Part shown: positions 38,018-63,114 of the stretch, piece after piece
Layout of the letters: each line of letters begins with the position of its first letter
Position numbering within the stretch: the first letter of the stretch is position 1
Assembly: GCA_014904985.1 (NCBI GenBank)
Contig: MU128982.1
Coordinates: 108,773 to 172,772, forward strand
Direction: 5' to 3'
Length of the DNA stretch: 64,000 nt
Origin: Hydnum rufescens UP504
Lineage: Eukaryota; Basidiomycota; Agaricomycetes; Cantharellales; Hydnaceae
Notes under the pieces: model-generated
Database searches by the model: none
The model's input: only the letters and a program-made list of their open reading frames with translations
What the model was told of the DNA's origin: nothing
Position numbers and translations under genes: made by a program

Positions 38018-38094
38018 TTGCGTAACATGGGTCGTACTTTTTGTTTTTATCACCCTAAGGGATGAGAAAAAGGAGCCAAGGAAAGTCAGGTCAT

Positions 38095-38764: not shown

Positions 38765-38780
38765 GAAAGAACACTCACAC

Positions 38781-40903
38781 CTAGTTCATGATGTGCAGCG
38801 AGGTGACAGCATTTGCACAGTATTCGTCGTATCTCGACCACACAGCCTTGCCCTCTTCATTTTTCACTTCGATGGCGGCGGGAGTGAGCTCCTGGACAAA
38901 GACACCAGTGGTCATACCAGACGTGGTACCGGGGAGTGGAGGGGATCGGTGAAGCCGATGCCGTCGCAGACAGTGACCCAGCCAGGACCAGAGACAACCT
39001 GGGTCTGGTGAGTTGCTTTCGAATGGTTCATGTGGTGCCAGAGCCGTAGCGATTGGTGATCAGAGTGAAGTGGGACATGGCAGTGCCAATGTTTTCGTAT
39101 TTCTTGGTCCAGTACCTGAAATGGTGCTCGCCCTCAGAGTTCGCGTAATTGGAGATGCCGGGGCAGACGATGTCGTCCCGGACTGAGAAGCCGATGCTGT
39201 ATATCCACTTAAGCATCAAACATCCGAGCGAGTCCATTTGTCTGAAAATCGAAATCGAATGGGGGGATCAGATGTTCACGTGGAGGGTTGGAACACCGAT
39301 GCCTTCCAGGGCTATTGGCGCTGCGGAGATGAGGATGGTGTTGAGGAGGGAAGTCCTCTCATCCTTCTTAGACACTAACGCGTCTGCTCGCATACCATAC
39401 CCATTGCTTCCTCGTTTATGGCATTTGAAGCACCTCACAGCCTTCCACACCAGCCACATGTGTTTCCCCGAGGGATGGGTCTGGATGATCAGGTTGTTTC
39501 TCGCGAAGCACTCTTTGCCCACCTCATGACATGATCAACTATCTCCTCGACCACGCAAAGCTAACTCTCCCAACGACGGGTCCCTTCCGTAAGCCAGGAG
39601 CGCTTAACGCGAGAAAATTTATTGGAGTATTGGCAGAAGCGACAGGTGCCGTCGACGAGAAGAGATGACTTCTCCGTCAAATCCAAGGACAGTGTTCTGG
39701 ACGTCAGCCTAGGTGGCCGCTGCCAGACATTGATGCCGTTACGTTGGGTAAAAAGGGAGAGCAACAACTCTAAAATTGAACGTCCAACCTGGAGACCGAG
39801 GACGAGGCACTGGAGGCGATATTCGGCGTGAGAAGGATGTATGATATGCCTGGAGAGTCATACCGTTGGGGACGTTGGCGCAAAACTCTTTGTGTTTTGC
39901 TGGATTCTCCTAGTCGAGGACGTAGAACTCTAGACCATCCTTGATGCCAAAGAGACGGAGTGCTGTGGACATTGTGGTATGTGAGAAAAGGAGGGAAAGT
40001 ACAGTGCACGAGGGTGGCGTACTTCACCGTGGAGGCAATGGTCATGTCGATTACATATTCCATGAGATATTGAGGGATTTCGGAACTATATTGTTGCGTG
40101 GTTTAACTGGAGCTTCGTCGATGCTATGATGGACTCCCACATTCTTTGGTACATTCCATAGGCCCATGAAGCTACTGCCACAGTGATTGAAACGGGGAAT
40201 GCTGAAGGCGGGAGAGCCCAACCACGGCAGCCGCGGGACCGATAACCTTTATGGTAGTATCGACACTGAGATGTTTCCATATCATGCTTTGCGATTTAGA
40301 TCTAGAGGACACCACAATGCTTACAAACCCGGAGGATTCGGACGGCCATTTGCAAGATCTATCACCCGATGCGTCATCAGGGCTCGGAATTCTGTCGGCT
40401 TTAAACACTACACCCAAAAACTCGATTAGTCCGAACAATCGTCGCAACAATTAATGCAGGACGCGCCTGATGGTTTGGGTCATTAAAATCCCAGACGTTG
40501 ACGATGTCATCATGAATGACCCCAGTGCATTCATCAAGGCGGATGCCAGTAAAGGTTCCGGAGAACATATAGCCCCAATGCTCTATGGAAACGAACAGGT
40601 AGGCATGAGATCAGGATCTCTCGTGTTCCCCAAACGGACACACTGTGTTGTCCGACGCTGGAGGATGTCGTATCAGAATGCGAACATTAGACCAGCGATA
40701 GTACTGGACGCACTCGATCGATGTTGAGATCTTTGTTGCGAGACTGCCTCTTTAAGCAACTGCAGCCGAGCTCCGAGATTCGGTTGCTCTGAATCGGCAG
40801 GACCCTCGCCGGTCGGTGTCTGGATTTTCAGAACGGTGGCCTTCGTACGAACTTGAAGAGCGGCATTATTGGCTAACAGGCGGAGTACAGAGCCAGTGTG
40901 CAT
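38781..40903 (-). CDS. uncharacterised multi-exon gene, copy 1
   Basis: A series of minus-strand exon candidates runs from MHTGSVLRLLANNAALQVRT (40903) through SGTFTGIRLDECIGVIHDDI, SSGFVSIVVSSRSKSQSMIW, EFYVLDPEIQ-like, DSPGISYILLTPNIASSASS, RSWLTEGTRRWES, VWKAVRCFKCHKRG and FSVRDDIVCPGISNYANSEG to EVKNEEGKAVWSRYDEYCAN and a stop at 38781. The same order is kept in the second copy, which supports real coding. I do not recognise the family, and exon ends are uncertain. Copy 1 has a one-base shift relative to copy 2 near 38935 (four versus five G). Confidence 0.45.
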
Positions 40904-41414: not shown

Positions 41415-41516
41415 CCGGGCTCCCGTCTAGTTTCGGTTAGGTACAGGTGGACTTAGAGAAATCAGTTCTCAAAGGAGCAGACCGAGTAGTCCATTCATGA
41501 TCACCCCAATATGTGT

Positions 41517-41650
41517 TCATTTGTTCAAAAGTTCATTTGTTCAAAAGTTTGTTCATTCAAAAGTCCCTTCATTCAAATATTCACTCGTTCAAATGTTCAT
41601 TTGTTCAAATATTCACTTGTTCAAATGTTCATTTGTTCAGACATTTCTTT
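41517..41650. repeat. minisatellite of TTCAAATGTTCATTTG-like units
   Basis: Imperfect tandem 14-16 bp words built from GTTCAAA and GTTCATT, about eight or nine copies. Confidence 0.75.
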
Positions 41651-41837
41651 TTTTACAGTATAATGCCCATATGATGAACATGAGAGTTCCGGAAGACAAT
41701 CTGATTATAGTTATGAACCGTTTTTCTTTCGCACTTTGTGATCCCCTTTTGTATTTCCTTTTTTCCAAGTCTTGCGCATATATGTGTCCAACGACCCACG
41801 CTGATAAGAGTTTTCTCTTTTTTTTCCTACCCTAAAG

Positions 41838-42355
41838 CAACATCCCCTCCAAATAGCTTTTGCAAAAGCTTTCGAATCCGCTACAGGCGTATACAGTAAG
41901 GTACCCATTAAACACCAAAGGTCCGAGGCACTCTTGCCCACGGACGCCCGAGAGGACGCGGCAGTACTCGACTACAGTGCCGATTGGGAACAACTACCAT
42001 CTAGCGACGTGACGTCTGTGTACTGGGAGCCGGTAAATGAGGGGGAGGTACGAGCTTTTTCTTTTTCTTTTCGTGCCAGTGTATACATATACTATACGCT
42101 TTACGCTGACGATCCCACCGTATTTTTCCACACATGCACATTGCATAGGCCCCGATCGTCCCGACGACGCTCGAGGAAATCGCGCAGGAGAGGCTGTCCG
42201 CCATGCACACGGAGAAGCCGCCAAAATCTGTGCGCGAAGTGAGGCGTACGACGTTTGTGGACGTGGGGTCTCGAATCCAACATACACATCACAGTGTGAA
42301 GAACTCGAGTGCGGGATACAAGGGACCACAATGGACCCCAGAATTCACTACATGA
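41838..42355 (+). pseudogene. mS45 3' fragment produced by duplication
   Basis: Corresponds to the last two exons of mS45: PLQIAFAKAFESATGVYSKV, then across the intron PIVPTTLEEIAQERLSAMHT, ending WTPEFTT at 42355. Compared with the parent there are replacements (T to I, K to E, T to M, F to I) but no stop. It lacks the presequence and first exons and has no obvious start, so it should be a nonfunctional truncated copy unless fused to new 5' exons. Confidence 0.8.
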
Positions 42356-42428
42356 TTGCGTAACATGGGTCGTGCTTTTTGTTTTTATCACCCTGAGGGA
42401 TGAGAAAAAGGAGCCAAGGGAAGTCAGG

Positions 42429-43107
42429 TCATTTATACACGCGAAAAATAGGACCAGGAAGACGCACCGAAGCGATGGCCTGCTGACCGACAGAGATAGG
42501 TGAGGGCGCGACCTTTGTAAGGAACTGAAGCTCCCATTCGACGAATGGGGAATTCCAGGTGATGTCGCACTCCTGTGGATGGATGATGCCACAGGTGTAG
42601 CATTTTCTCCGGTCGCCACAGACGGCGGCCCACATGCGGGGGTTGCTGCACACGTTCATGAAGGGGTCTTGTAATTCGTTTTTCACCTCGTCATAGTTCT
42701 GACGTTGCAAAAGGGGGTTCAGGGGAGCGAAGAAGTGATCGGAAAGAAAGTTGTTGTCACAGTTAATTGGATGATAAAGGCATGCTTCCTTGGAGAAGAA
42801 GGAAGGACGGAACAAAAAAAGAAAACTCACCAATTAGACGATTGAGATCATGGAAGAGGCCATTCCATCGAGTGGGGAAGCGGTTCTCGGCCATAGCCTG
42901 GATTCGCACCTCCTCGGAGAAACGGTTAATGTCTTCGACAACCGCGTCCGAGATCCCATCCAAGCGCTCCAGGGGTGTATCAGGGAGGAGCAATGGCAAC
43001 CGTGAACTGCCACATGAGGCCGACTCGAGCAGTGAGAATCGGGACACGGAAGCAGCTGTAATTGAACTATTTTGGGTAGTCAGATCAACTGTGGAAGTCA
43101 AGGCCAC
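42429..43107 (-). CDS. uncharacterised Cys-containing exons, copy 2
   Basis: Second copy of 38095-38764, with the same CGDRRKCYTCG motif and RFSEEVRIQAMAENRFPTRW. Copy differences include R to D in the LERLARISD / LERLDGISD region. Function unknown. Confidence 0.4.
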
Positions 43108-43123
43108 GAAAGAACACTCACAC

Positions 43124-45263
43124 CTAGTTCATGATGTGCAGCGAGGTGACAGTGTTCGCACAGTATTCGTCATATCTTGACCACACAGCCTTGCCCTCTT
43201 CATTTTTTACTTCGATGGCGGCGGGACTGAGGTCCCGGACAAAGACACCAGTGGTCATACCAGACGTGGTACCGGGGGAGTGGAGGGGATCGGTGAAGCC
43301 GATGCCGTCGCAGACGGTGACCCAGCCAGGGCCAGAGACAACCTGGGTCTGGTGAGTTGCTTTCGAATGGTTCATGTGGTGCCAGAGCCGTAGCGATTGG
43401 TGATCAGAGTGAAGTGGGACATGCCCAATGCCAATGTTTTCGTATTTCTTGGTCCAGTACCTGAAGAAGTGCTCGCCCTCAGAGTTCGCGTAATTGGAGA
43501 TGCCGGGGCAGACGATGTCGTCCTGGACTGAGAAGCCGATGCTGTATATCCACTTCTGGGAGCATCCAAATACCTGAGCAAGTTCATTTGTCTGAAAATC
43601 GAAATCGAATGGGGGGATCAGATGTTCACGTGGAGGGTGGAACACCGACGCCTTCCGGGGCTATTGGCGCTGCGGAAATGAGGATGGTGTTGAGGAGGGA
43701 AGTCCTCTCATCCTTCTTAGCACTAACGCATCTCTCACATACCATGTCTATCGCTTCCTCGTTTATGGCATTTGAAGCACCTCACAGCCACCCACACCAG
43801 CCACATGTGTTTCCCCGAGGGATGGTCTGGATGATCAGATTGCTTTCTCGGGAAGGCACACTCCTTTGCCCAACCTCATGGACATGATCAACTATCTCCT
43901 CGACCACGCCAAAGCTAACTCCCCCAACGACGGGGTCCCTTCCGTAAGCCAGGAGCGCTTAACGTGAGAAAATGTATTGGAGTATTGGCAGAAGCGACAG
44001 GTGCCGTCGACGAGAAGGGATGACTTCTCCGTCAAATCCAAGGACAGTGTTCTGGACGTCAGCCTGGTGGCCGCGCCAGACATTGATGCCGTTACGTTGG
44101 GTAAAAATGGAGAGCAACAACTCTGAAATTGAACGTCCAACCTGGAGACCGAGGACGAGGCACTGGAGGCGATATTCGGCGTGAGAAGGATGTATGATAT
44201 GCCTGGGGAGTCATACCGTTGGGGACGTTGGCGCAAAACCTCTGTGTTTTCCTGGATTTCCGGGTCGAGGACGTAGAACTCTAGACCATCCTTGATGCCA
44301 AAGAGACGGAAGTGCTGTGGACATTGCGCTATGTGAGAAAAGGAGGGAAAGTACAGTGCACGAAGGTGGCGTACTTCACCGTGGAGGCAATGGCCATGTC
44401 GGTTACATATCCCATGAGATATTGAGGGATTTCGGAACTATATAGTTGCGTGGTTTAACTGGAGCTTCGTCGACGCATGATGGACTCCCACATTCTTTGA
44501 TACATTCCATACGCCCGTGAAGCTACTGCCACAGTGATTGAAACGGGGAGTGCTGAAGGCGGGAGAGCCCAACCACGGCAGCCGCGGGACCGATAACCTT
44601 TATGGTAGTATGAACACTGAGATGTTTCCATATCATGCTTTGTGATTTAGATCTAGAGGACACGGCAATGCTGACAAACCCGGATGATTCGGACGGGCTC
44701 ATTTGCAAGATCTATCACCCGATGCGTCATCAGGGCTCGGAATTCTGTCGACTTTAAACACTACACCCAAGAACTCGATTAGTCCGAACAATCGTCGCAA
44801 CAATTAATGCAGGACGCGCCTGATGGTTTGGGTCATTAAAATTCCAGACGTTGACGATGTCATCATGAATGACCCCAATGCATTCATCAAGGCGGATGCC
44901 AGTAAAGGTGCCGGAAACATATAGCCCCAATGCTCTATGGAAATGAGCAGGTGGGCATGAGATCAGAATCTCTCGTGTTCCCAAACGGACACACTGTGTC
45001 GTCCGACGCTGGAGGATATCGTATTAGAATGCGAACATTAGACCAGCGATAGTCAACAGACTGGACGCACTCGATCGATGTTGAGATCTTTGTTGCGAGA
45101 CTGCCTCTTTAAGCAACTGCAAGAGCCAAGCTCCGAGATTCGGTTGCTCTGAATCGGCAGGACCCTCGCCGGTCGTTGTCTGGATTTTCAGAACGGTGGC
45201 CTTCGTACGAACTTGAAGAGCGGCATTATTGGCTAACAGGCGGAGTACAGAGCCAGTGTGCAT
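43124..45263 (-). CDS. uncharacterised multi-exon gene, copy 2
   Basis: Second copy of 38781-40903. Its last exon is open longer than in copy 1, from FDFDFQTNELAQVFGCSQKW through FSVQDDIVCPGISNYANSEG and SGPGWVTVCDGIGFTDPLHS to EYCANTVTSLHIMN and the stop at 43124. This suggests that copy 2 is the better reading. The first exon MHTGSVLRLLANNAALQVRT starts at 45263. Other exon candidates follow the same order as in copy 1. No recognised domain. Confidence 0.45.
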
Positions 45264-45681: not shown

Positions 45682-46991
45682 ATGTGGAAATCTATTCGCC
45701 AGCGTTTTAAAGCCACCAACAAAGACAACGATGCAACCAAGCGCTTCAGGGTCCTCATCCTTGGACCGGCGAACGCAGGAAAGACCACTCTGCTCGAAAG
45801 ACTAACAGACAGCCCCGCCGGGGCGGCTATAGTGACCCGGAACAGTAAACGTGTAATTACTACAGATGTTCAACTCAATAGAGCTGCTGGTCTAATGCAT
45901 ACCTTTCTCTCTCAGATCAAGGAAGTCCCCAGGGGATACGATCAAGTAAGAGCCATCCTATCAAAGGCACGCTACGATTGCTCGATGCTTTCACACGATC
46001 TAGCGAGGGATTCACAATATCGACGACGAAATCACTTATGCATCGAACTCCGACTTCGTCTTTCACGACTCTGGCGGTTTCGAGGCCGGTGGGGTCAAGG
46101 AAGTCGAGGCCGTCTGGGAATTTATTCGAAAGCGCTCGCTAGCTCCGCCTTCACAGCAACTGCATGCGATTTGGTGCGTTCCCCCGTGCACATTCACATG
46201 TCCTCATACTTCGACTCATCAATTATTACAGGCTCTGTATTCCAACAGATAGTGACAGGCCCTTTGGATTCCTGCAGTCAGGCTTTTTCTCCAAACCTAC
46301 AGCATCAGGTACGTCCCAAGAGTTCCAGCATTTGGCCCTATCTGTACACACTGGTCCATGTATCCCTCAGTACCTGTTATTGGGATCTTCACCAAGTTGG
46401 ATGGAAGAGAAACGAAAATGATGACTGAGGTTCTCGGTCCTGCTCCCAGCCCATCTGATTTCCTCGATCGTGCCCCGGAGGTGGAGCGGAAAGTGGCTGA
46501 ATTTATTGACGGACTCGAGACACAATTTCGGAAGCAGCAGCACCCACCTGCTGGTTTCATCAGGGTCGGAAGTATGTATACTCTATCTGAATAGCAATTT
46601 TGGCACTTAAATCTATGGTTAAAGACATGCATGAAGATACTGAGCAGAGTGTAGCATCATGCGAGCAACTTCTTCGAACCACCATAGATGCACTTCCCGA
46701 TGGGACCCAGAGATTGTTGCTCAGCCTCACGGTTTGGAAAAGAAATCGCCGGATTCATACCATATATGTTGTACAACGGTGAGTGTGGATGTCCAACCAG
46801 ATTGATAGTGACTAATAGTCTTTATCTCATAGTGTCCTTGACAGTGGAGCTGAAGGTACTGTCTTGAGTTCTACTGATGAGATGATGGTACAATTTGACT
46901 ATATTCAGGGAACATCATGAACAGAACCCCAGGACCTGGGGAAGATGAAGAATCCCAGTTACGTGCAGATAATGGGTTCAGGATTCTCATG
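45682..46991 (+). CDS. P-loop GTPase that reads in frame into a microexon array
   Basis: Plus-strand gene starting MWKSIRQRFKATNKDNDATK. GTPase motifs: G1 GPANAGKT at about 45760, G3 DSGG in FVFHDSGGFEAGG (about 46065), G4 TKLD (about 46390). This fits a basidiomycete family of soluble G-domain proteins (50S-binding/septin-like superfamily). Exons before and after introns near 46174, 46312, 46572, 46779 and 46856 all join in frame without indels. Exon 46833-46855 (23 nt) and exon 46909-46991 follow; the latter reads NIMNRTPGPGEDEESQLRAD then NGFRILM and ends in phase 0 at a GTGAGT donor. From there the only continuation is the array of single-codon exons. An alternative start is the ATG at 46917. 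NGFRILM resembles the strand before a P-loop, hinting at a second G domain interrupted by the array. Confidence 0.75.
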
Positions 46992-49617
46992 GTGAGTGAC
47001 TCTGTCACTTGTGGGCAGTGCACTGATTGTATCATATCCTGTGCCTGTAATAACTGGTTGTGACATTATTGGTTCATTGGATGGTATTCACAATGTAGGA
47101 GGTATGGCCACAGGCACTAACATTTGTTGCATGATCACTGACTTACATATCTCTTTGTGGCCTTGACAATGTAGTTGGTCAGTCTGGATCTCTGACAATT
47201 TGATACATGGCAGCTGGCTGATAGATTTCTTGATGCCATTGGGAACACAGTATGTGAGTCTGGATCTCCCACCATTCAATGCATGGTTGTTCCCTGATAC
47301 AACTTCTGGTGGAATCTGTAATGCAGGGGGTGAGTTTGCATCTCTCAGAATTTGATGTGAGATTGCTGTTTGTACAACTTTGGGTGGCATACATAGTGTG
47401 TGAGTATGCATCTCCCACCTTTGGATCTGCACTGTTGCCACCAGCTGATATATCCCTTGGTGATCTTTACAATGTAGGAGGTAAGACTGCATCTCTCACA
47501 GTTTGATATGTGGTCACTAGTTGAGAGAACTTTTGGTGGCATGAACACATAGAAAGTGGGTTGGCTTCCACCACTGTTTGATGTATGATGATTAACTGAT
47601 TCCTTTTTGGTGGCATTAACACTATAGTATGTATGTCCAGATGTCTTGGAATTCAATGCATGGTTGCTGATTGGCAAATATTTTGTTGACATTAACAATA
47701 TAGTATGTGAGTGTGGATTCAATATGAGGTCCTTGGCTGATAGATGATTGGGTGGGAAATAAAATAGGAGGTATGTTCATATTTCCCAGTATTCATGGGT
47801 GGTTGCTGGTTGATGCATCATTGGGTGACATGGACAATACAGTATGTAAGTGGGGCATTACTATAAGTTAGCACAGGGTCACTAACTGATCTATCATTGG
47901 ATGATGGACAATGTAGAAAGTCAGTCTGGCTCTCTTGCAATTTGATGTGTGGGCTGATATGTCTTCTCTGTCATGGACAATGTAGGCAGTAAGTCCAGTT
48001 CTCTCACAATTTGATGTGTGGACCTTTATTGATATTTAACATTGTTTGGTGCCATTGACACTGCAGTCTGTAAGTTTTGATATTTTCCAATTTGATGTGT
48101 GGCAACTAGTTGATACAATGTTTGGTACTGATAATGTAGGATGTAAGTCTGGGTCTCCTCTGCCTTGATGCACCATCACTGGCTGACATATCACTGGATG
48201 ACATTGGCAATCAAGAATGTGGGTGCCCTTTCAATTTTGTGTGTGATTGCTGGTTGATCCATTCTTCTGTGTCATGACACAGCTGGTGGGCTGCTTCTCT
48301 TACAATTTCATGCAGGGTCACAGGCTGATACATCAATGCATGGTATTCACAATGCAGGATGTGAGTATCCCCCACTATCTAGCTGATACACTTGTTTCAA
48401 TGTCATCATCAATATAGTATGTGAGTCCAGATACCTCCCAGTTTGATGTGTCAGTACCAGCTGATACATCATTGGGTGGGATTGATAAAATAGAAAGTAA
48501 GTGCATGTCTCCCACCATCCATGGGTGCATGTGGGGCTGATACATCCTTTGGTGGCCCTGACAACATAGAATGTAAGTGTAAATTTCTTAGTATTCAATC
48601 TATGGTTGATGGCTAATATATCTTTGGGTGGAATTGACAATACAGACTGTAAGTCTGGTTCTCTTCTGATGCAAGGCCAAGGTGCAGACTGATATTTCTT
48701 TGTCTGACATGTACAATGTAGGAAGTAAGGCAGGATGTTTCACAATTTAATGCATGGTCACTTGCTGATACATTGTTTGGTTCCATGACAATGTAGCATG
48801 TAAGTGTGGATCTCCTCTGATTCAATGTTGGGTCACTGGTTAATATAGTCTGTGGTGACATTGATAATGTAGGATGTAAGATCTAATCCCTGTCACTTTG
48901 GTACAATCACTGGTTGATACATATCTGGATGACATTGGCAACCTAGCAAGTAAGCCTGGCTCCTTTAGATTCAGTGTGTGGTGACAGGCTGACCCCACCA
49001 ATGGTATCAACAATGTAGCTGGTGGGCCAATGACCTGTCACCATTTGATGCAGGATTGCTGGCTGATTCATCATTTGATGGGATTGACAATGTAGGAAGT
49101 GAGTTCCATCCCCTGCCTTGTGATACATGGGTGTTGGCTGATACATTGTCTGGTGGTATCAAAAATGTAGGAGGTATGTTGAAATCTCTGGAAATTAATT
49201 GTGAGCTCACTGACTTACATTGTTTGGGGGTATGGGGAATATAAGGCAGTGAGTTTGCCTCTCCCACTGTTCATTGGGTCCTTGGTTGATGTATCTTTGT
49301 GTGGCATTGTCACCATAGTATGTAAGTCAAGATATCATACTAATTCATGCATGGTTTCTGGTTGATTCATGTTGGGTGGCATCTGCAACTAAGAGGGTAG
49401 GCCTGGATGTTTGAATACAACACCACAGGCTGATTTCTCTTTTGGTGGGGTTGATAACATAGCAGGTAAGATGGGATCTGTTAGAATTTGATATCAGGTG
49501 CCTAGCTGATAGATTGGTTGGTCACCTGAACACTGTAGGATGTAAGTCCATATCACCCACCATGTGAAGAATGGTTACCAGTTGACACATATGTGGGTGG
49601 CATTCACAACATAGGGT

Positions 49618-50689
49618 GTAAGTCTGGATGTCCTAGAATTCAATGCATTGTCCTTGCTGATTCATCTTTTGGTGGGATTGACACATAGCCTGTAAGTGTG
49701 GATGTCTTAGAATTCAATGCATTGTCCCTTGCTGATTCATCTTTTGTGGACATAGCTGTAAGTGTGGATGTCTTAGAATTCAATATTGTCCCTTGCTGAT
49801 TCATCTTTTGGTGGGATTGACCACATAGGGTGTAAGTGTGGATGTCTTAGAATTCAATGCATTGTCCCTTGCTGATTCATCTTTTGGTGGGATTGACCAC
49901 ATAGGTTGTAAGTGTGGATGTCTTAGAATTCAATGCATTTGTCCCTTGCTGATTCATCTTTTGGTGGGATTGACCACATAGCATGTAAGTGTGGATGTCT
50001 TAGAATTCAATGCATTGTCCCTTGCTGATTCATCTTTTGGTGGGATTGACCACATAGCTTGTAAGTGTGGATGTCTTAGAATTCAATGCATTGTCCCTTG
50101 CTGATTCATCTTTTGGTGGGATTGACCACATAGCTTGTAAGTGTGGATGTCTTAGAATTCAATGCATTGTCCCTTGCTGATTCATCTTTTGTGGGATTGA
50201 CCACATAGCGTGTAAGTGTGGATGTCTTAGAATTCAATGCATTGTCCCTTGCTGATATCTTTTGGTGGGATTGACACATAGATGTAAGTGTGGATGTCTT
50301 AGAATTCAATGCATTGTCCCTTGCTGATTCATCTTTTGGTGGATTGACACATAGTTTGTAAGTGTGGATGTCTTAGAATTCAATGCATTGTCCTTGCTGA
50401 TTCATCTTTTGGTGGGATTGACCACATAGCTGTAAGTGTGGATGTCTTAGAATTCAATGCATTGTCCCTTGCTGATTCATTTTTTGTGGGATTGACCACA
50501 TAGCTTGTAAGTGTGGATGTCTTAGAATTCAATGCATTGTCCCTTGCTGATTCATCTTTTGGTGGGATTGACCACATAGCTGTAAGTGTGGATGTCTTAG
50601 AATTCAATGCATTGTCCCTTGCTGATTCATCTTTTGGTGGGATTGACCAATAGCGTGTAAGTGTGGATGTGCTAGAATTTCAGGCGCCC
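49618..50689 (+). repeat. homogenised part of the array, first contig
   Basis: About 14 units of 73-76 bp, nearly identical to one another. The spacers are CCT, CT, GGT, GTT, CAT, CTT, CTT, CGT, AT, TTT, CT, CTT, CT and CGT, so the third base is always T while the first two vary. Two-base spacers occur mostly as CT beside CTT and may be dropped homopolymer bases. Confidence 0.85.
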
Positions 50690-50714
50690 NNNNNNNNNNN
50701 NNNNNNNNNNNNNN
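50690..50714. other. assembly gap of 25 N
   Basis: The gap lies inside the array. The sequence after it repeats 47591-49640 almost exactly. Confidence 0.99.
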
Positions 50715-52755
50715 ATTAACTGATTCCTTTTTGGTGGCATTAACACTATAGTATGTATGTCCAGATGTCTTGGAATTCAATGCATGGTTGCTGATTGGCA
50801 AATATTTTGTTGACATTAACAATATAGTATGTGAGTGTGAATTCAATATGAGGTCCTTGGCTGATAGATGATTGGGTGGGAGATAAAATAGGTGGTATGT
50901 TCATATTTCCCAGTATTCATGGGTGGTTGCTGGTTGATGCATCATTGGGTGACATGGACAATACAGTATGTAAGTGGGGCATTACTATAAGTTAGCACAG
51001 GGTCACTAACTGATCTATCATTGGATGATGGACAATGTAGAAAGTCAGTCTGGCTCTCTTCCAGTTTGATGTGTGGGCTGATATGTCTTTCTCTGTCATG
51101 GACAATGTAGGCAGTAAGTTCAGTTCTCTCACAATTTGATGTGTGGACCTTTATTGATATTTAACATTGTTTGGTGCCATTGACACTGCAGTCTGTAAGT
51201 TTTGATATTTTCCAGTTTGATGTGTGGGAACTGGTTGATACAATGTTTGGTACTGATAATGTAGGATGTAAGTCTGGGTCTCCTCTGCCTTGATGCACCA
51301 TCACTGGCTGACATATCACTGAATGACATTGGCAATCAAGAATGTGGGTGCCCTTTCAATTTTGTGTGTGATTGCTGGTTGATCCATTCTTCTGGTCATG
51401 ACACAGCTGGTGGGCTGCTTCTCTTACAATTTCATGCAGGGTCATGGGCTGATACATCAATGCATGGTATTCACAATGCAGGATGTGAGTATCCCCCACT
51501 ATCTAGCTGATACACTTGTTTCAATGTCATCATCAATATAGTATGTGAGTCCAGATACCTCCCAGTTTGATGTGTCAGTACCAGCTGATACATCATTGGG
51601 TGGGATTGATAAAATAGAAAGTAAGTGCATGTCTCCCATCATCCATAGGTGCATGTGGGGCTGATACATCCTTTGGTGGCCCTGTCAACATAGAATGTAA
51701 GTGTAAATTTCTTAGTATTCAATCTATGGTTGATGGCTAATATACCTGTGGGTGGAATTGACAATACAGACTGTAAGTCTGGTTCTCTTCTGATGCAAGG
51801 CCAAGGTGCAGACTGATATTTCTTTGTCTGACATGTACAATGTAGGAAGTAAGGCAGGATGTTTCACAATTTAATGCATGGTCACTTGCTGATACATTGT
51901 TTGGTTCCATGATATAGCATGTAAGTGTGGATCTCCTCTGATTCAATGTTGGGTCACTGGTTAATATAGTCTATGGTGACATTGATAATGTAGGATGTAA
52001 GATCCAATCCCTGTCACTTTGGTACAATCACTGGTTGATACATATCTGGATGACATTGGCAACCTAGCAAGTAAGCCTGGCTCCTTTAGATTCAGTGTGT
52101 GGTGACAGGCTGACCCCACCAATGGTATCAACAATGTAGCTGGTGGGCCAATGACCTGTCACCATTTGATGCAGGATTGCTGGCTGATTCATCATTTGAT
52201 GGGATTGACAATGTAGGAAGTGAGTTCCATCCCCTGCCTTGTAATACATGGGTGTTGGCTGATACATTGTCTGGTGGTATCAAAAATGTAGGAGGTATGT
52301 TGAAATCTCTGGAAATTAATTGTGAGCTTACTGACTTACATTGTTTGGGGGTATGGGGAATATAAGGCAGTGAGTTTGCCTTTCCCACTGTTCATTGGGT
52401 CCTTGGTTGATGCATCTTTGTGTGGCATTGTCACCATAGTATGTAAGTCAAGATATCATACTAATTCATGCATGGTTTCTGATTCATGTTGGGTGGCATC
52501 TGCAACTAAGAGGGTAGGCCTGGATGTTTGAATACAACACCACAGACTGATTTCTCTTTTGGTGGGGTTGATAACATAGCAGGTAAGATGGGATCTGTTA
52601 GAATTTGATATCAGGTGCCTAGCTGATAGATTGGTTGGTCACCTGAACACTGTAGGATGTAAGTCCATATCACCCACCATGTGAAGAATAGTTACCAGTT
52701 GACACATATGTGGGTGGCATTCACAACACAGGGTGTAAGTCTGGATGTCCTAGAA
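50715..52755 (+). repeat. second copy of the diverged array segment
   Basis: Matches 47591 to about 49640 (offset about 3120) with very few substitutions. The single-codon spacers are the same in order, except that GAG at 47768 is GTG at the equivalent unit near 50892. It is likely an unmerged contig overlap or the other nuclear haplotype. Confidence 0.85.
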
Positions 52756-55575
52756 TTCAGTGCATAGGTACTTACTGATTCATCTTTTGGTGGGATTGAC
52801 CAACATAGCCTGTAAGTGTGGATGTCTTAGAATTCAATGATTGTCCCTTGCTGATTCATCTTTGGTGGATGACATAGCTGTAAGTGCAGATGTCTTAGAA
52901 TTCAATGCATTGTCCCTTGCTGATTCATCTTTTGGTGGGATTGACCACATAGCTGTAAGTGTGGATGTCTTAGAATTCAATGCATTGTCCCTTGCTGATT
53001 CATCTTTTGGTGGGATTGACCACATAGGGTGTAAGTGTGGATGTCTTAGAACTTCAATGCATTGTCCCTTGCTGATTCATCTTTGGTGGGATTGACCACA
53101 TAGCATGTAAGTGGATGTCTTAGAATTCAATGCATTGTCCCTTGCTGATTCATCTTTTGGTGGGATTGACCACATAGCTTGTAAGTGTGGATGTCTTAGA
53201 ATTCAATGTCATTGTCCCTTGCTGATTCATCTTTTGGTGGGATTGACCACATAGCTGTAAGTGTGGAAGTCTTAGAATTCAATGCATTGTCCCTTGCTGA
53301 TTCATGTTTTGGTGGGATTGACCACATAGCGTTGTAAGTGGTATGTCTTAGAATTCAAAGCATTGTCCCTTGCTGATTCATCTTTTGGTGGGATTGACCA
53401 CATAGCATGTAAGTGTGGATGTCTTAGATTCAATGCATTTCCCTTGCTGATTCATTTTTGGTGGGATGGACAACATAGCTCTGTAAGGTGTAATCTTAGA
53501 ATTCAATGCATTTCCTTGCTGATTCATCTTTTTGGTGGATTGACCAACATAGCGGAAGTGTGGATGCTTAGAATTCAATGCATTGCCTTGCTGATTCATG
53601 TTTTGGTGGGATTGACCACATAGGTGTAAGTGTGGATGTCGTAGAATCAATCAATGTCCCTTGCTGATTCATCTTTTGTGGATTGACACATAGCTTGTAA
53701 TGGTGGATGTTTTTAGAATTCATGCATTACCTTGCTGATTCATCTTGGTGGGATTGAACAAATAGGGTGTAAGTGTGATGTCTTAGAATTCAATGCTTGT
53801 CCCTTGCCTGATTCTCTTGTTGGTGGGATTGACCACTAGGACTTTAGTGGGATGTCTTAGAATTAAAATTTGTCCTTGCTGATTCATCTTTGGTGGGATT
53901 TACACCACAGGTTGTAATGTGGATGTCTTGAATCAATGGATTGACCCTTGCTGTCTCATCGTTGGGGGATGACCCACGAATAGGTTGTAAGTGGTGGACT
54001 TAGATCAATGTATTGGTCCATTGTTGAGTTCATCTGTTTTGGTGGATGACCCAATAGCATTGAAGTGTGAGGTCCTAGGATTAATGCATTGGCCCTGCGA
54101 TTCATTGTTGGTGGATTGACCACATAGCATGTAAGTGTGGAGCTTAGATCAATGCAGTGTCCCTTGCTGATTCATCTTTGGTGTGATGACCACATAGCCT
54201 GTAAGTGTGGATGCCAGAATCAAGGCATTTCCCTTGCTGGATTTTTTTGGTGGGATGGCCAATAGCTCTGTAAGTGTGATGTCTTAGATTGCATGGATTG
54301 TCCCCTGCGAGTTCATCTTTGGTGGCTGCACAGTTTGAAGTGTGGATGTCTTAGAATTCATGCATTGCCCTTGCGATTCATTTTTTGTGGAAATTGACCA
54401 CATAGCCGTAAAGTGTGGACTTAGAATCAATGCATTGTCCCTTGCATTCATCTTTGTGTGGGATTGGACCACATAAGGTTTGAAGTGTGTGGTATTAGGA
54501 TTCATGATGGCCCTAGCTTATTCATCTTTTTGTGGGATTGGACCAGTAGTCGTAAGTGTGGAGCTTGGAATCAATGATGTCCCTTGCTGATCATCTTTTT
54601 GGGATGGCCACATGGGTGTAAGTAGTGGATGCTCTTAGAAATAAATCATGCTCCTTGCTGATCATCTTTGGTGGATTGACCCACACAGTTGTAAGTGTGG
54701 ATGGTCTATAGATTCAATGATTTTCCTTTGCTGATTCATCTTTTTGTGTTGTTGACAACATAGATGCTAAGTCGTGGATGTCTTTAGATTCAAGTCATTG
54801 CTCCCTTGGCTGATATCTTTTGGTTTGGAAGTTGACCACATTAGGTTGAAGTGTGGATGTTTAGAATTTTTGTCCCTTGTTGATCTCATCTTTTTGTGGG
54901 ATACCACATAGGCTTGTGTTGGATGCTTAGAATCAAGCATTGTCCCTTGCTGATTCATGACCATAGTTTAGTGTGGTAGATTCGATGCCACATAGCATTG
55001 TAAGTGGGATGTCTTAGAATTCAATGCATTGTCCCTTGCTGATTCATTTTTTGGTGGGATTGACCACATAGCATTGTAAGTGTGGATGTCTTAGAATTCA
55101 ATAGCATTTTCCCTTGCTGATTCATTTTTTGGTGGGATTGACCACATAGGCATGTAAGTGTGGATGTCTTAGAATTCAAGCATTTTCTGTTCATCTTTTG
55201 TGGATGACATAGCATGTAGTGTGATGTCTTAGAATTCAATGCATTGTCCTTGCTGATTATTTTTTGGTGGGTTGACCACATAGCTTGTAAGTGTGGATGT
55301 CTTAGATTCAATGCATTTTCCCTTGCTGATTCATCTTTTTGTGGGATTGACCACATAGCCTGTAAGTGTGGATGTCTTAGAATTCAATGCATTGTCCCCT
55401 TACTGGTTCATCTTTTGGTGGGATTGACCACATAGCATGTAAGTGTGGATATCTTAGAATTCAATGCATTGTCCCTTGCTGATTCATCTTTTTGTGGGAT
55501 TGACCACATAGCCTGTAAGTGTGGATGTCTTAGAATTCAATGCATTGTCCCTTGCTGATTTTGGTGGCCTTAACA
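52756..55575 (+). repeat. homogenised part of the array, second contig
   Basis: About 38 copies of the 75 bp unit. Spacers again are NNT-type (CCT, GGT, CAT, CTT, TTT-like). Between about 53600 and 55000 the units are full of random one-base gains and losses, then become clean again by 55000-55575. Confidence 0.8.
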
Positions 55576-56265
55576 ATGTAGCTTGTAGGTCCAGATCTTA
55601 CAATTTTATCCATCATCCTCACTAATCCATCTTTTGATGGCATTGACCATGTAGGGAGTAAGTCCAGATGCCTTAGAATTCAATGTATCATCCCTTGCTG
55701 ATTCCCCCTTTGGTGGAATTGGAAATGCAGTCTGTAAGTTCAGATGGCTTAGAATTCAATGCATCATTGCTTGCTGATGTCCCACTTGGTGGTTTTGTCC
55801 CCATAGGAGGTCAGTCCACACCTCCCATGCTTTGAGTCATCATCTCTGGATCATCTCTTACTTTGTGACATCTACCCCATAGGCTGTGAGTCCCCATCTC
55901 TTACTATTCAGTGCATGGTCCTTGGCTCATATACATTTTGGTGCCATTTACAATGTAGCTTGTGAGTTCCTAGATCTATATAATGGAATCATATTCTATT
56001 TTCCAACTGCACTCCTTACAATTCAATTTTCAATTTAAACAGGACAATGTAAGTCACATCTAATGTGTGAAAGCCAAATAATTGTGTACACTTGCACTCT
56101 CATTCATTGCTCACCCATGCCTTCATTCTATCTGGTGAATGTTGTCAATCTGCCCCTCAGACCTCATCCTGTTCTCATCTTGATTTTCCTAGCTGCCCCA
56201 ACATGCAGGGGATCAAGGCCTGTGTGCCCTTCCTTAAACTTTCAGTCAGTTTAGGTTTTCATTAA
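55576..56265 (+). CDS. proposed 3' end of the microexon gene
   Basis: After the homogenised block, diverged units resume with spacers CTT, GGA, TCT, GAG, GCT and CTT, then a six-base exon GACAAT at 56043-56048 followed by a GTAAGT donor. The next good acceptor is the CATGCAG ending at 56208. From 56209 the phase-0 frame reads GIKACVPFLKLSVSLGFH and stops at 56263-56265. The resulting C-terminus would be L G S E A L D N plus this tail. The last exon rests only on splice signals and frame and is speculative. Confidence 0.35.
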
Positions 56266-57844
56266 TTTGCCACCTCCAGGAAGTCTAAGCATTCATTGCA
56301 GCATCACCAGTCCACACCATCCAAGCCAGATGTTCACTACCTGGTGTTTGTTTGTTGTCAGTGTTGAGACTGATTCTGAGTGCACAGGAGGTTGCTGATC
56401 TTGGCTTGTTGAACTAGTGGTCATCATTTGGATTCGGGAGGGCAGGCATGCCCATGAGACAGAGCATACTGCTAGCTCTATCCAGGCTCAGATCAAGGAT
56501 GATGGAGATTTCCCAGAATATGGTTCATACAATATTGCATGGAAACTTGCAAGGATCATTGATCAATATACAGCATTGTAGGCATCATGTATAATACATA
56601 TATCAACCATGATGTACTCCAATGAGATTGAACTCCATCCTTATTGTTGAGGTAGACAATCACTGCCATTATCCCCATAACATCCACTTCTGTATGTACT
56701 GGCAGTTCCCATAGAACTACAACACTAGCTTCTGATCCCAACACTTATCTCCAACAGGCTTTGGGGAAATTGATTGGAATCATTGTTCCCCAAGTGAGGA
56801 CCACAAGCTGGAGGCATAGGTGATGGCACACTAGTCAATCATACTTGATGCATAAGTGGGTCCAATAGTGATGGGGTGCCATAGGGGTGCCAATTAGTAA
56901 TTCAATATTGAAAAATCAACCCAAATGGGGCCCCATTGTGATGCAATGGGTGTGATATAGTACATTACATAATTTAGTTTGAACTCAAAAGTCCTGTGTA
57001 TGTGGTAGATTCTGCAGAGTAAGAGAAAGAATCTTTGCCCAGACATGTGAGAAATTGTTAACCTTCATCCCCTGACATGCCCCTTTGTGTGATTAAGCTA
57101 ACCTGCAGCTTGTCTAATGGCCATTAACTGCTGGCCTTAACCCCTGACCTTGTAGGTCTGCATATGGACTCAATTAGGGAACACAGAAAATAGAGCCCCT
57201 GCCCTTCTTACTGACACCATTCCTCTCCAATAGAGAGCTGGTGTGCTGCTTGGCCAACAGCTACTTTATATCTTTTACCACCTCCCCCTTTCCTCCACAC
57301 CCTTTTCTCCCATGCCTGGAATGAAGCCAGTGCTGACAATGGTGGGATTCTATCTTCTCCTACTCCTCCCCTCCTCAGGCTGGTCAGTCACTTTTGTCCA
57401 TCATATTTGTCAGGAATGAATCGATATTTGCTTCCACCTGACCTTGGTCAGCCATTTAGGCTGACCTCAAGAGGACCATTTGAGGTCATTTCACCAGCCT
57501 AATGAGGCCTAATGTTCTTTGATGTCAATTGACAATCATCAAATTGGCTTTATGAAAAATTTGACTTTGGCCAATATCAATACTACATGGAGGTATAACT
57601 GCATGGGGATATTAGGAGGGGGTCCAGGAACCAGGGGAATGCCATTCATGGACTCAGTGGGTAATATGGCTTTATCAGTGATAGTAGGTTATAATTATTG
57701 ATTTGGTATTCTGATAGATATGTACACAAATGGGGACCAATTATTATGATACATGTATAATACAGGGAGGATCCATTCCTTCAACCAGGGAAAGAATGAC
57801 CTTTGAGATTAGCCAAGGTAATGGACCAATATGGGAGAGCAGAA

Positions 57845-58276
57845 GGTGAAGATGAGGAACAGTGAGGCCACAAATTGTCAGAACATACTGAAAGTAGGTT
57901 TGTTGAAAAGCTGTGATATGGGTGCACAGAATTCACTCACACACAGCCTGAACAACAACACCTTTCCACCAGGAGGAGCACATGAACTTATCAGAGAAGA
58001 TTGAGGATAGCACAGTGGAAACTGGTCAGATCATGGTGTAAATCTGCTTAATGGATTTGGACAGGTGAGCTGAATTGATCACACCCAAGAATTCCTGAAT
58101 TGGCCATGATTTGATTATCCCAGGTGGTGTTGAGTGGGAGGTGAGGGGAAGATGAGGGGCAGTGAGGCCAGAAGTTGTCAGAATGTCTTGCAAGTACACA
58201 TGTTGAAAAGCTGTGATTTGGGCACACAAAATGCACCCAATAGACTGAACAACAACACCTTTCCCTCAGGAGGTGT
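57845..58276 (+). repeat. two direct copies of a 130 bp segment
   Basis: 57845-57975 and 58145-58276 share AGTGAGGCCA, TTGTCAGAA, TTGAAAAGCTGTGAT and CTGAACAACAACACCTTTCC in the same order, about 300 bp apart. Confidence 0.7.
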
Positions 58277-59001
58277 AGTATAGTGATTAGATAATCCTTG
58301 TGTATACATGCTGTGTGACCATAGGGAACAGCCACAGCTTCTTCTGTCAAATTCTATGTTTTTTGCTCCCCAAAGTGTGAGTTGAACACCTTGGGCAGCC
58401 CAATTTCCATACCTAATTAGATAGTCTTTTCTGGTAGATATTGGGTCTAATAGACCTATAGGCCCATGGCCCCCTGGGGCCTCCTGAATATTAGGACCCA
58501 TGGGCCCATGCCAGGGGATGTTTTAGACACTGGCCCCATGAAAACCCCCCTCCACTCTTCACTCTCTGCCAACAACATTCATTCCAGCTTCCACCTTCAT
58601 TTCCATCCAAGACAGCTAGCAGGCACATCAGTCATCACCCATTCAAATAAATAATTTACATCCACTACATCCAAAAAACTTGCCACCATCCATCAGTACC
58701 TGCCCCCTCCAGCAGCAGGGTCACTATGCAGGGTGGTGGACAGCCCCAAATGATGGCTGTACACTGGAAATCAGCCTGCCACAGCTACCCATTCACTCTG
58801 GGCAGTCATTGCCCATTCAAAAGCAGTGGGGTTTCCTTATTTGGAAATCACATGTTCATTTGGACTTGCATATTCCAGCCTGCTACAAGGCCTTTTTTGG
58901 CTGCTAATTGGGCAGCACAGTACCTTTCATTTATCTCTATTTTACATTACAAAGAAGGGACTACAAAAGAAAAAAAAGAAAAATTGAATTCACACAAAAA
59001 A

Positions 59002-59118
59002 CATGGGTGCCTGGTGCCTACAGGGACCAGGCACATGATCTGAAGGGGTAATATGTTGGAGGAAACCCAGGAGTCCATGCACACAAAAATTTGTGTGCAT
59101 GGGTGCCCAGGTTCCTCC
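59002..59118. repeat. two adjacent hairpins
   Basis: 59002-59037 pairs GTGCCTGGT with ACCAGGCAC. 59058-59118 pairs 29-30 nt arms, starting GGAGGAA and meeting at CCATGCACACAAA / TTTGTGTGCATGG with a loop of about two bases. The second would be a very stable stem in RNA. Confidence 0.75.
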
Positions 59119-59289
59119 ATTATTCATTATTCACAATTTCATACAGGTCTATCCTTTTGAACCAGCCACAGGCTTTGGCTGGTCAAAATTGCCAGCAACA
59201 AGGATGATCCCATCATCATGGGATTGCCCTCATCACCATTCAGGGTAGGTGGGAAAGATAATTAGTCCCTATACTGAAAATAACTTGGA

Positions 59290-60560
59290 TTGGTAGTATG
59301 GAGCATGAACAAGGCAGCTTAAAGCAGCCCTGTTTGTGCTGAAGGAGAGGCAGGTTTGGGGGGACTTAGCTCATCACCACACCCCAGCAAGGCTGGGGTA
59401 TGGTGTCCTGCCTATTGTGCATGTGGTTGGAGTCTTTGGGTTCTTCAGTCAGGTGGATTGTGCTGAATTGTAAGATCCACAGTCATTCACAATGACAATG
59501 ACAAGATTGTGATTATTGCCATCACTTGAGGTAGGCGAGGGGGGTGCAGGTGAGCATGATGGTCCCTAAAGTGAAAGTAATTGGTACATAATTAAAGCAG
59601 CACAAAAAAGGCTGCCTAAGCTGCCCTTTTTGTACAATATGAGATGACGGACAAAGATACTTACCTGATTACCACACCCCAGCCTTGCTGGGGTGTGGTT
59701 TCCTGTCTTGGGTGCTTTATCACTGGGTTCTGTGGTCACATGGGGTCATATGACCTGTAATTGCTGGTAATGATGACTGGATCATTAGGTGGTAGCATCA
59801 ATGCCATAATTTGAAGGGGGGGAGGAGGGTGGGCAGCAGTGATACATCCTGTAATGAGAGGACTTTGAATTGCTAGTAAAGAATGACACCTATGCAAAGA
59901 GGCCAGCTTAAGAGCCACCCTCTTTGCAAAAGATGAGACATACAAATGCTCTACATATCTTATTGCCACACCCCAGCCTTGCTGGGGTGTGGTGTCCAGT
60001 TCATGGTGGCTTGTTGTTGGCTTCTTTGGGGCTGAAAGCCCTGTAATTGTATATGGTGATTACCAGATCATCACCATCATTTCACATGCAAGTGGCAGTT
60101 GGGGAGGTGTAACAGTACCTAGGATGAATACAGCTCAACATGTTAGTAAAAAATTAAAGCTGCACAAATGAGGCAGCTTAAAGCTACCCCACTGGTGCAA
60201 AAGAGGAGATAAAACACATACCTGCTCACCACACCCCAGCCTTGCTGGGGTGTGATGACTTAGTTGGTTGGTCATGCAGGGTCATATCCAGAATTGAGTG
60301 GATGATGATAGCATCATCATCATCATCATTGTCATCTTCATTGTCCTCCTCATTGTTTTATGTCTGGGGGGTGGGCCTGAGTGATGGCCCTGATGATGAA
60401 AAGAATTCAAGATGTTAGTAGATAATACAAGGAGTGCAAAAGGACCAGCTTGGACCAATTCCTTTTGCACAAAAGCATAAATACAAAACCATACCTTATT
60501 ACCACACCCCAGCATCATCACTGGGGTGTGGTGCTTGCTTGCTCCATAATTGGGTGTCAG
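59290..60560 (+). repeat. five tandem units of about 265-295 bp, each with two hairpins
   Basis: The hairpin ACACCCCAGC...GCTGGGGTGT recurs at 59376, 59671, 59965, 60227 and 60501. About 60-90 bp before each, a second stem occurs that is different in sequence but alike in form, for example GCAAAGAGG...CCTCTTTGC at about 59895-59935 and TGCAAAAGGA...TCCTTTTGCA at about 60436-60470. Period: 295, 294, 262, 274 bp. Confidence 0.75.
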
Positions 60561-61470: not shown

Positions 61471-61928
61471 GGGGGATACATATGGAAGTTGGGGCATAGC
61501 CATGTGGAGGTGCGCACAGGATTCGTAACACAGCTGCGTCAGCTTAGTGAGGCTTAGTGATGGTGGCTGTGGAGGCTGACTGATGGGCTGTGGAGCCGGC
61601 ATTCTAGGAGGATCCGGAAGGTTATGGAAGACGGCGGAAGGCTCTGGAAGGTTGGAGGCTGTGTGCAGGAAATAGTATTTATAGCCCTTCGCAGTTGGGG
61701 GATCACCAGTTTTGATCTCTCAGGATTCCCACTGCGATAGGTGCGAGACTTGTGTGTCCCTTGTTGTGTGGTGTATACTCAGGATTCCCACTGCGATAGC
61801 GTGTGGTTAATTAATCTCTTTCCTCTTTCTGTTTGTGGCTTCGACGGCAGTGTCGCCCTGACAGAAGATCAAAACTCATCTCTTCGACCCCACAAACATC
61901 TTCCTTATCCCTTCTACCTCCTCTCCTC
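61471..61928 (+). promoter_or_regulatory. gag leader / probable 5' LTR region
   Basis: Contains GGAAGG repeated (61614-61655), a TATA-like TATTTATAG at about 61674, and the 20-mer CAGGATTCCCACTGCGATAG twice (61724 and 61780). This fits a U3/R region of an LTR retrotransposon followed by the gag leader. The partner 3' LTR is outside the window, so the limits cannot be fixed. Confidence 0.4.
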
Positions 61929-63112
61929 ATGGACGAAATCCCCGCTGATGCCTTCTCCGTCTTCGGCGCTGCTGGAGAAGGTCTTCGTCAAATGATGGAG
62001 GCACAACAACAACGGTACGAGCAGTTGGAGCAACAGAACCTTGTACTCCAGAACCTAGTGACTCGCCTTCAGACGGATACCTCTTCTCGTGAAACTCTGA
62101 TGGCTGAAGTCGAGGCGATTACCAAGGCTGTTGTCGAGAACCTCCCTGCTCCTGTCATTGGAGTTCCTCCTGCTCCTGCCACTACTCCTTCTATCTCTGC
62201 ACGTCCCCCAAAGGCAGCTGATCCAGAGGTCTTTGGTGGTGATCGCAAGAAGGCTGATCCCTTCCTCCGTGCTCTCAAACTTAACATTGCTATTCGACCC
62301 AACTCCTTTCCCAGTGATCAGACAAAGATCCTCTATGCCCTCTCCTACATGCAAGGAGGCAGTGCTGGTGATTGGGCTTCCAACTACACACGCGCTATCC
62401 TTGATGGCGATTCTCCCTTCCCTGATTGGGAAACCTTTTGCACCCGCTTTGAGGCAGCCTTCGGTGATGCGGACCGAGAGGCTCATGCCCGTCAGCGACT
62501 TCGTACCTTGAAGATGACTCGAGGGATGACAGCTGAGGAGTATACGACGGCCTTTGAGGCCATATCTGGGAAGACAGGCTTTAATGATGGAGCCTTGATG
62601 GATGCTTATGAGCATGGACTGCTCCGTAGCTTGGTCGAGAAGATACACCTCGACACCCTCCCTATGTCCCTTCAAGAATGGAAGGACAAAGCCACTCGCA
62701 TTGATAAGTTGTGGCGTCGCTTTAACGAACAGCACTCCTTCTCTCCCACCAACCCTCGCCAGGACAATCGTCCAGGAACAATTAGACCTTTCCGCCCTCC
62801 CACTACTACTCCTCAAACTCTTCCAACCTCTTTCCGTCCTGCTGCTGCTGCTGCGCCCTCCTCCTCCACCTATGAACCTATGGACGTAGACTCCAATCGT
62901 CGTCAGAATAATCCTCGCAGAGTTGCTGGTCTGTGCTGGAATTGTAACAACCCGGGCACATTGCCAGAGACTGCCCTGAGCCCCCACGCTCTCGTTCAGT
63001 ACGAGGTGCTCTGTCATCTGAGCAGATGGAGGAAGTGGTAGAGAAAGTTCGTGCTACTCTGGCACCCAAATCTGCTGAGGATGGAAATGAGGGTGTGGCA
63101 AAGGATTTTTAA
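61929..63112 (+). CDS. retrotransposon Gag (Ty3/Gypsy type), frameshifted
   Basis: The start at 61929 (MDEIPADAFSVFGAAGEGLR) leads to a coiled coil (RYEQLEQQNLVLQNLVTRLQ), then the retrotransposon Gag core: PEVFGGDRKKADPFLRALKL, YALSYMQGGSAGDWASNYTR, WETFCTRFEAAFGDADREAH and MTRGMTAEEYTTAFEAISGK. The C-terminal zinc knuckle starts CWNCNNPG near 62935, but the frame slips by one base in a CCCGGG run. The other frame supplies HIARDC and continues to a stop at 63112, so the CX2CX4HX4C knuckle is complete apart from one lost base. Gag forms the cytoplasmic particle that packages element RNA. Confidence 0.9.
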
Positions 63113-63114
63113 AG

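Follow-up and report, generated by a model that had tools for sequence, protein, structure and literature searches.

In the fungus Hydnum rufescens UP504, a gene for a G-domain protein very probably has a middle part that is an array of exons of exactly one codon each, and it belongs to a family with the same layout. The gene lies in a window of 64,000 nt (C74:108773-172772 of the 63.2-Mb genome), the whole stretch of DNA analysed here, which holds one such array gene; positions are those of the window and, unless stated otherwise, features are on the + strand. Eight ordinary exons (303 aa, with the G domain) are followed by the single-codon array, a 6-nt exon and three C-terminal exons. The reading frame is open over the eight exons from 45682 to 46991, the array is entered in phase 0 and the frame ends with TAG at 56581. 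Single 3-nt exons are known as rarities, whereas here runs of about 50-105 of them per gene, separated by introns of about 71 nt, form the variable part of a whole family. That single-codon splicing takes place is almost certain. The splicing claim is strongly supported, while what is said here on the evolution and function of the arrays is inference.

Three-nucleotide exons in the window gene

The array was read with a chain parser in which donor, acceptor and branch-like motifs contribute to the score and exons may have any length from 0 to 12 nt. Because the parser accepts only units with GT and AG, the conservation of these dinucleotides follows from the method; the 3-nt spacing does not. 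The array was found at 46992-50653 and 50751-56160. In its diverged part (46992-49691) 34 of the 36 junctions were parsed as 3 nt, and the two slips of the parser could be read by eye as AG-CAA-GT (codon 48947-48949) and AG-CAG-GT (codon 49463-49465), which bears out the claim of a preliminary description of this DNA that a 3-nt spacer is present in all of the first 36 junctions. The 36 codons, from GAG at 47099-47101 to CCT at 49689-49691, spell ELYGCEKYYEYKASDNLDYKNTEHDQLEEAYRQDGP. Their introns are 57-107 nt long, slips excluded, the one of 107 nt being the first. A motif made of a donor, 45-85 nt, AGNNN and a second donor occurs 57 times in the whole window, always in the array and on the + strand, as against 0.1 (+) and 0.05 (-) times in the shuffled window. 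For strong donors at 46990-49600 the nearest upstream AG is 3 nt away in 21 of 34 cases; over 1-46000, 3 nt is outside the eight commonest AG-to-donor distances. The array of intron-like units noticed in the preliminary description is thus real, and it is also part of a larger, genome-wide family.

In their ends, their branch-like motif and the joining of the codons between them in P0123 and other protein records, the array introns are spliceosomal GT-AG introns. Donor position 5 is G at 1.78 bits. Diverged introns have a mean length of 71 nt, and CTRAY is present in 273 of 403, in 153 of these 29 nt before the intron end, with 64 after shuffling; this is partly built in because the parser rewards CT-A motifs.

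Joined codons in public protein records

The codon strings are read in order by 12 public protein records: P0123, P0027, P0121, P0124, P0126, P0128, P0122, P0127, P0136, P0133, P0149 and P0153. Of the 153 residues of P0123, 150 are the same as in the window model, and the record runs across the sites of three ordinary introns and nine array introns without them. After the nine joined codons, array intron 10 (47707-47767) is retained and read in frame as VSVDSI-stop. For the window gene itself these first nine codons are the joined ones that were seen, and the codons past them are predicted to be joined likewise. Other records go further into the arrays: 33 codons are joined in P0027, 28 each in P0121 and P0124, 11 in P0126, 8 in P0128 and 4 each in P0122, P0127 and P0136. 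P0133 reads 42 joined codons, then DN and then the C-terminal exons, by way of the variable zone. P0153 has 74 residues ahead of GIKACV, which correspond to 72 single-codon positions (by homology) and two residues from the 6-nt exon, and P0149 likewise reads 72 codons and the two residues of the 6-nt exon through the variable zone into the C-terminus. P0136 corresponds to gene C123, including 22/22 residues of its retained intron 5, and P0128 to C213 and C164, including 10/10 residues of a retained intron; P0122, P0127 and P0027 are close matches to fetched genes and P0126 is a partial match. The array-reading records stem from jgi (environmental) contigs of 931-1641 nt, some of them longer, and these are read as RNA because the introns are missing in them. 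The proposal in the preliminary description that the array is transcribed and spliced codon by codon finds its support in P0123 and the eleven other records, given this RNA origin. Past the 28 joined codons, P0121 and P0124 carry a tail, DSRYHID, which none of the intron read-throughs tried could match.

The same records bear on the possibility that splicing takes out the entire array in one piece, as a single long intron, with the 3-nt exons left as relics. Any such skip would be in frame, and in the NCBI model P0008 exon 8 is followed by DY and then by VSVDSI, perhaps through partial skipping or a prediction error. The codon string is nevertheless present in 12 records, and a direct join of exon 8 to the C-terminal exons was found in none of the records seen, which makes this explanation highly improbable. 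Two NCBI models, P0008 (...ILMDYVSVDSI) and P0001 (...NDYVSVNSI), look like cases of skipped or mispredicted codon exons. NCBI models stop near the start of the array or give the C-terminus as a separate gene (P0142, P0144, P0151); because of the array, each of these genes is annotated as two halves and its middle is left out. Other arrays of this kind may hide in 'repeats' beside genes.

A gene family across the genome

The 76-nt array unit has 1218 matches in the genome. Arrays were read at 18 loci beyond the window, and the same G-domain gene lies upstream of every array examined with upstream sequence. The C-terminal exon was listed at 40 places, at least 32 of which have a G-domain match on the same strand within 13 kb upstream, two of the 32 sharing one G-domain locus (C171). 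Junctions were counted in the 17 arrays that were read together with their exon 8, and 1102 of 1196 were exactly 3 nt with the length left free; in the 13 clean arrays, a set that drops the window, C65, C164 and C123, the count was 859 of 882. The parse of C133a, C127, C47, C32 and C123 ends inside the array, and the arrays of C2, C476 and C489, parsed in a first locus survey, stand outside the 17. Exon 8 ends in ATG/GT or GTG/GT in 17/17 arrays. No stop was present in 859 codons, with 17.2 expected from positional base frequencies, nor among the 383 codons at the first 31 codon positions, where 23.8 were expected. The three C-terminal exons can be read through in frame at 17 of the 21 loci tried. 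The protein thus laid out would have two conserved parts, an entry string that begins ELYG and a C-terminus with a hydrophobic stretch, and a variable segment of 25-69 residues (nine arrays read to the end).

Intron length was unequal in 1633 of 2207 unit comparisons between paralogues (pairs below 55% intron identity excluded), while exon length was constant at 3 nt. A non-coding minisatellite, with GT and AG 3 nt apart by chance, would agree with the clean 76-bp tandem repeat that makes up part of the array; the constancy of the spacing beside this variation in intron length, the lack of stops and the joining of codons in proteins leave it hardly conceivable, and it is already contradicted by P0123, which joins codons. 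Nor does a clean monomer in which GT and AG are no more conserved than other positions, a case that the preliminary description had raised against itself, apply here, since the exon stays at 3 nt while intron length differs.

Alike introns and unlike codons

Beyond roughly the first 31 codons the introns resemble one another. The mean entropy of the flanks in 11 arrays was 0.14-0.37 bit, compared with 0.92-1.59 bit at codon position 1 and 1.69-1.92 bit at position 2; position 3, mostly T, had 0-0.90 bit, and single flank columns reached 1.8 bit, so that some flank positions are not quiet. Among units with identical 60-nt flanks the codons were unlike in 76 of 95 pairs within an array and in 25 of 31 pairs between arrays, chance agreement being 0.11. 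The nearest flank was found in the same array only for 184 units and in another array only for 95, with 111 tied. The variable strings of paralogues could not be aligned (mean z 0.30; 1 of 36 pairs reaching 3.0, in the nine arrays with complete strings), even where the entry strings were 0.86-0.90 identical. Array C6a and the environmental record P0133, on the other hand, agree at 20 of 21 aligned residues and differ by two indels, of 1 and 4 codons. The strings are thus passed on by descent, and part of their change is by whole units. Block duplication was tried as a source of the variable zone and rejected: repeated codon strings reach no greater length than in shuffles, apart from C213, which has a 5-codon repeat against a shuffled mean of 2.6 and a maximum of 5.

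The CpG dinucleotide is scarce in the arrays, which contain 45 CpG as wholes with 2,800 expected, and 32-62 CpG are present in the 1.3 kb upstream of each array. Array introns have 22 CpG in 64,909 nt and codons 20 in 859, about 34 times the intron density. In the variable zone 18 of 476 codons are CGN, where base composition would predict 37.8. Codons with C in third position, which would form CpG with the following GT, number 1 in 859, and the loss of CpG at C/GT accounts for the constant T at codon position 3. This pattern suggests that the codons are held or renewed against CpG decay. Depletion is not confined to the array: downstream of the gene, at 56582-60000, the observed/expected ratio of CpG is 0.02.

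Introns kept alike around codons under selection are the likely reading of this zone. Instead of selection, a directed mutation process resembling that of a diversity-generating element might have made the codon differences, by acting on the two bases that separate AG from T. Such a process would place variation on codon positions 1-2 amid near-identical flanks, as is seen, and the codons are nearly unlinked to the flanking intron; in eight of the nine arrays that have more than one close unit pair, 0.69-0.74 of these pairs differ at position 2, compared with 0.05-0.08 for the flanks. The C6a/P0133 string, however, has been kept although the identity of the C-terminus is down to 0.86, which means that codon turnover is slow, and CpG loss at C/GT accounts for the constant T (the single NNC codon noted above). 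We regard directed mutation as quite improbable.

Proposed mechanism and weight of the evidence

Intron definition is the probable route by which the short introns are taken out, with the upstream exon growing by three nucleotides at every splice; gain, loss or skipping of any unit would then keep the frame. In the variable zone unequal recombination and gene conversion probably hold the introns alike, inside a gene as well as from gene to gene, and their CpG was probably lost through cytosine methylation and deamination, with the codons of the paralogue-specific segment presumably set by selection. By analogy with fungal allorecognition repeats, the segment would most likely let each copy bind a target of its own, and the G domain would act as a switch; a recognition role is put forward tentatively and is somewhat doubtful. 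Less likely still, the family could be a maker of repertoires, in which unit exchange in the germ line and in-frame skipping of codon exons would provide each gene and each transcript with its own recognition peptide. Every residue would be its own exon and the intron a recombination scaffold, in dozens of GTPase genes, an idea that we consider rather unlikely. If single-codon splicing holds, a spliceosome is able to assemble a coding sequence from one-codon pieces that lie between introns of about 70 nt. This is relevant to the limits of exon size and to intron definition. A peptide could then also be diversified with a recombining repeat that is never in the protein and with a frame that no unit change can break.

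Several observations weigh against this explanation. The RNA origin of the jgi proteins is inferred from their missing introns. Seven of the 12 array-reading proteins end as if in a retained intron, and given these truncated records the full-length protein may be a minor product. In the window copy 32 of 122 junctions are not 3 nt and 90 are, so that this copy, if the letters are real, is damaged. The AF2 model of P0153 has a pLDDT of 50.4, too weak for a structure search. In the conserved entry zone the identity between paralogues is 0.808 for codons and introns alike, and single-base codon differences there are 413 nonsynonymous and 85 synonymous, with 0.705:0.249 expected; this slight nonsynonymous excess, and the equality of codons and introns, imply that constraint on the entry zone shows only in its frame, its lack of stops and a small number of fixed residues.

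The retained introns also raise the possibility that the array is mainly a splicing brake, the usual product being a truncated G-domain protein and the variable peptide a by-product. Of the 12 proteins, 7 seem to end in a retained array intron, and three of these 7, P0122, P0127 and P0136, from different gene copies, stop after ELYG. Three records, P0133, P0149 and P0153, nonetheless reach the C-terminus through the variable zone, which keeps frame, stop-free codons and codon CpG; the C-terminus is conserved in frame, and the calling of open reading frames (ORFs) on partial transcripts favours truncated records. A brake as the main function is accordingly improbable, if less so than directed mutation. 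In P0122, P0127 and P0136 it is the same intron that is kept, with a tail VSL..LV.VR.LGVYLL.AWIT, and a regulated short form is possible.

Relation to known systems

Searches of the open-licence PMC literature, which covers neither subscription journals nor preprints, turned up no gene with arrays of single-codon exons. One feature of the architecture is found in micro-exon genes, one in lone ultra-small exons and one in WD-repeat allorecognition genes, and nothing met in these searches combines them. In the micro-exon genes (MEGs) of Schistosoma, as here, the coding sequence consists mostly of tiny exons that are usually multiples of 3 (859/882 junctions of 3 nt here). The paper on MEGs gives them 10-20 exons, 6-81 bp long (3-81 in its abstract), puts their introns at 0.1-5 kb and calls the tiny exons hard for automatic annotation (PMC10526429). 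The mushroom genes differ in that the runs comprise about 50-105 exons, each exactly 3 nt long, with partly near-identical introns of about 71 nt between them, and in being fused to a G domain. That a fungus can splice an exon below codon size is known from the single-nucleotide exon reported for Fusarium CYP621A (PMC12940212), but there it is one tiny exon inside a conserved motif, whereas H. rufescens has an array.

The het-d/het-e family of WD-repeat allorecognition genes in Podospora resembles the mushroom family in having units that are alike within and between loci and positions that are diversified; repeat exchange within and between family members, with few diversified positions per unit, is described for it (PMC1805685). 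The homogenised unit of het-d/het-e is protein (WD40), while that of the mushroom is a spliced-out intron and only the variable residues reach the protein. In domain content the window gene does not fall under the NLR/HNWD definition (NACHT or NB-ARC with WD40 or other repeats): one Pfam scan of the 339-aa spliced part found no NACHT or WD40 and gave a single match, Arf, at 21 bits under its cut-off of 22.3. No NLR or dynamin relatives stood at the top of the similarity listing, which is not taken as proof of absence. The G-domain fold with its P-loop makes the product a P-loop GTPase. Among the matches listed, G domain-containing proteins from other named genera of Agaricomycetes are 31-47% identical to the N-terminal part. 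The array part was not seen in the three sequences of this group that were read (P0037, P0039, P0042). ELYG is present in 9 of the 164 proteins compared, and none of these 9 comes from a named genus.

Introner elements and intron gain by tandem duplication give many near-identical introns in one genome. Unlike introner elements, the arrays read here sit in one gene family, with one intron per codon in phase 0.

Organisation of the window gene and its surroundings

Exon 1 (45682-45852) contains the start codon and the P-loop GPANAGKTT, and its ends in the in-frame model are those of P0024, a protein record identical to part of the window gene. It is followed in the model by exon 2 (45916-45945), exon 3 (46004-46173) and exon 4 (46232-46308), and then by exon 5 (46371-46571), exon 6 (46625-46778), exon 7 (46833-46855) and exon 8 (46909-46991), whose junctions match P0123. 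The last residues of exon 8 are ...GFRILM, and the first array donor follows in phase 0; the preliminary description had the limits of this exon right, and it is the eighth exon of a longer gene. The diverged array zone (46992-49691) gives way to a homogenised, variable-codon zone with a period of about 76 bp and some 2-nt spacers (49692-50689). Then come a gap of 25 N in the assembly (50690-50714, no strand), a second copy of 47591-50377 with 97% identity (50715-53500; likely an assembly effect or a recent duplication) and, by repeat and chain parse, indel-rich units of low-quality appearance (53400-55560). On the C-terminal side the chain parser read diverged single-codon exons CTT GGA TCT GAG GCT CTT (55561-55961). 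The 6-nt exon GACAAT (DN) lies at 56043-56048, the same position as in paralogues and P0133. The C-terminal exon GIKACVPFLKLS, placed by sequence and paralogue comparison, spans 56209-56244. It had been described as the last exon, 56209-56265; its start holds, but its end is at 56244, and it is followed by the exon HHQSTPSKPDVHYLVFVC... (56302-56356, junctions agreeing with P0133) and the true last exon (56418-56581), which ends ...IIDQYTAL-TAG.

The window copy is unreliable near the assembly gap, and the region of about 53400-55000 is rich in indels. The preliminary count of about 120 units agrees with the 122 junctions parsed here, but this number is inflated by the 25-N gap and the 97% repeat at 50715-53500. 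Hybrid assemblies in the genome paper are described as ALLPATHS-LG assemblies patched with PacBio by PBJelly (PMC7550596), and that of H. rufescens may be one of them. Spacers of 2 nt were rejected as a real property of the arrays: they are found mainly in four noisy ones (11/122 junctions in the window, 14/84 in C65, 10/62 in C164 and 3/46 in C123) and three times in the 13 others, and most would be a single lost base (CT for CTT), like sequencing deletions. Exons of 7 nt were likewise discarded, as NNTGCAA with the following GT reads as NNT and then a GC donor (GCAAGT). In L023 (C47) about 17 successive codon units are present twice, on either side of about position 6000, through duplication or an assembly effect.

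Elsewhere in the window, ORFs at 61815-63507 resemble the gag of a Ty3-type retroelement with a CWNC zinc knuckle, and they carry a motif, ALLDSGATGMFI, which we take to be protease-like. A few kb upstream of the gene, near-identical ORFs at 37068-38785 and 41808-43128 indicate a segmental duplication. A tandem repeat of period 16, TGTTCATTTGTTCAAA, is present in 7.9 copies at 41514-41639.

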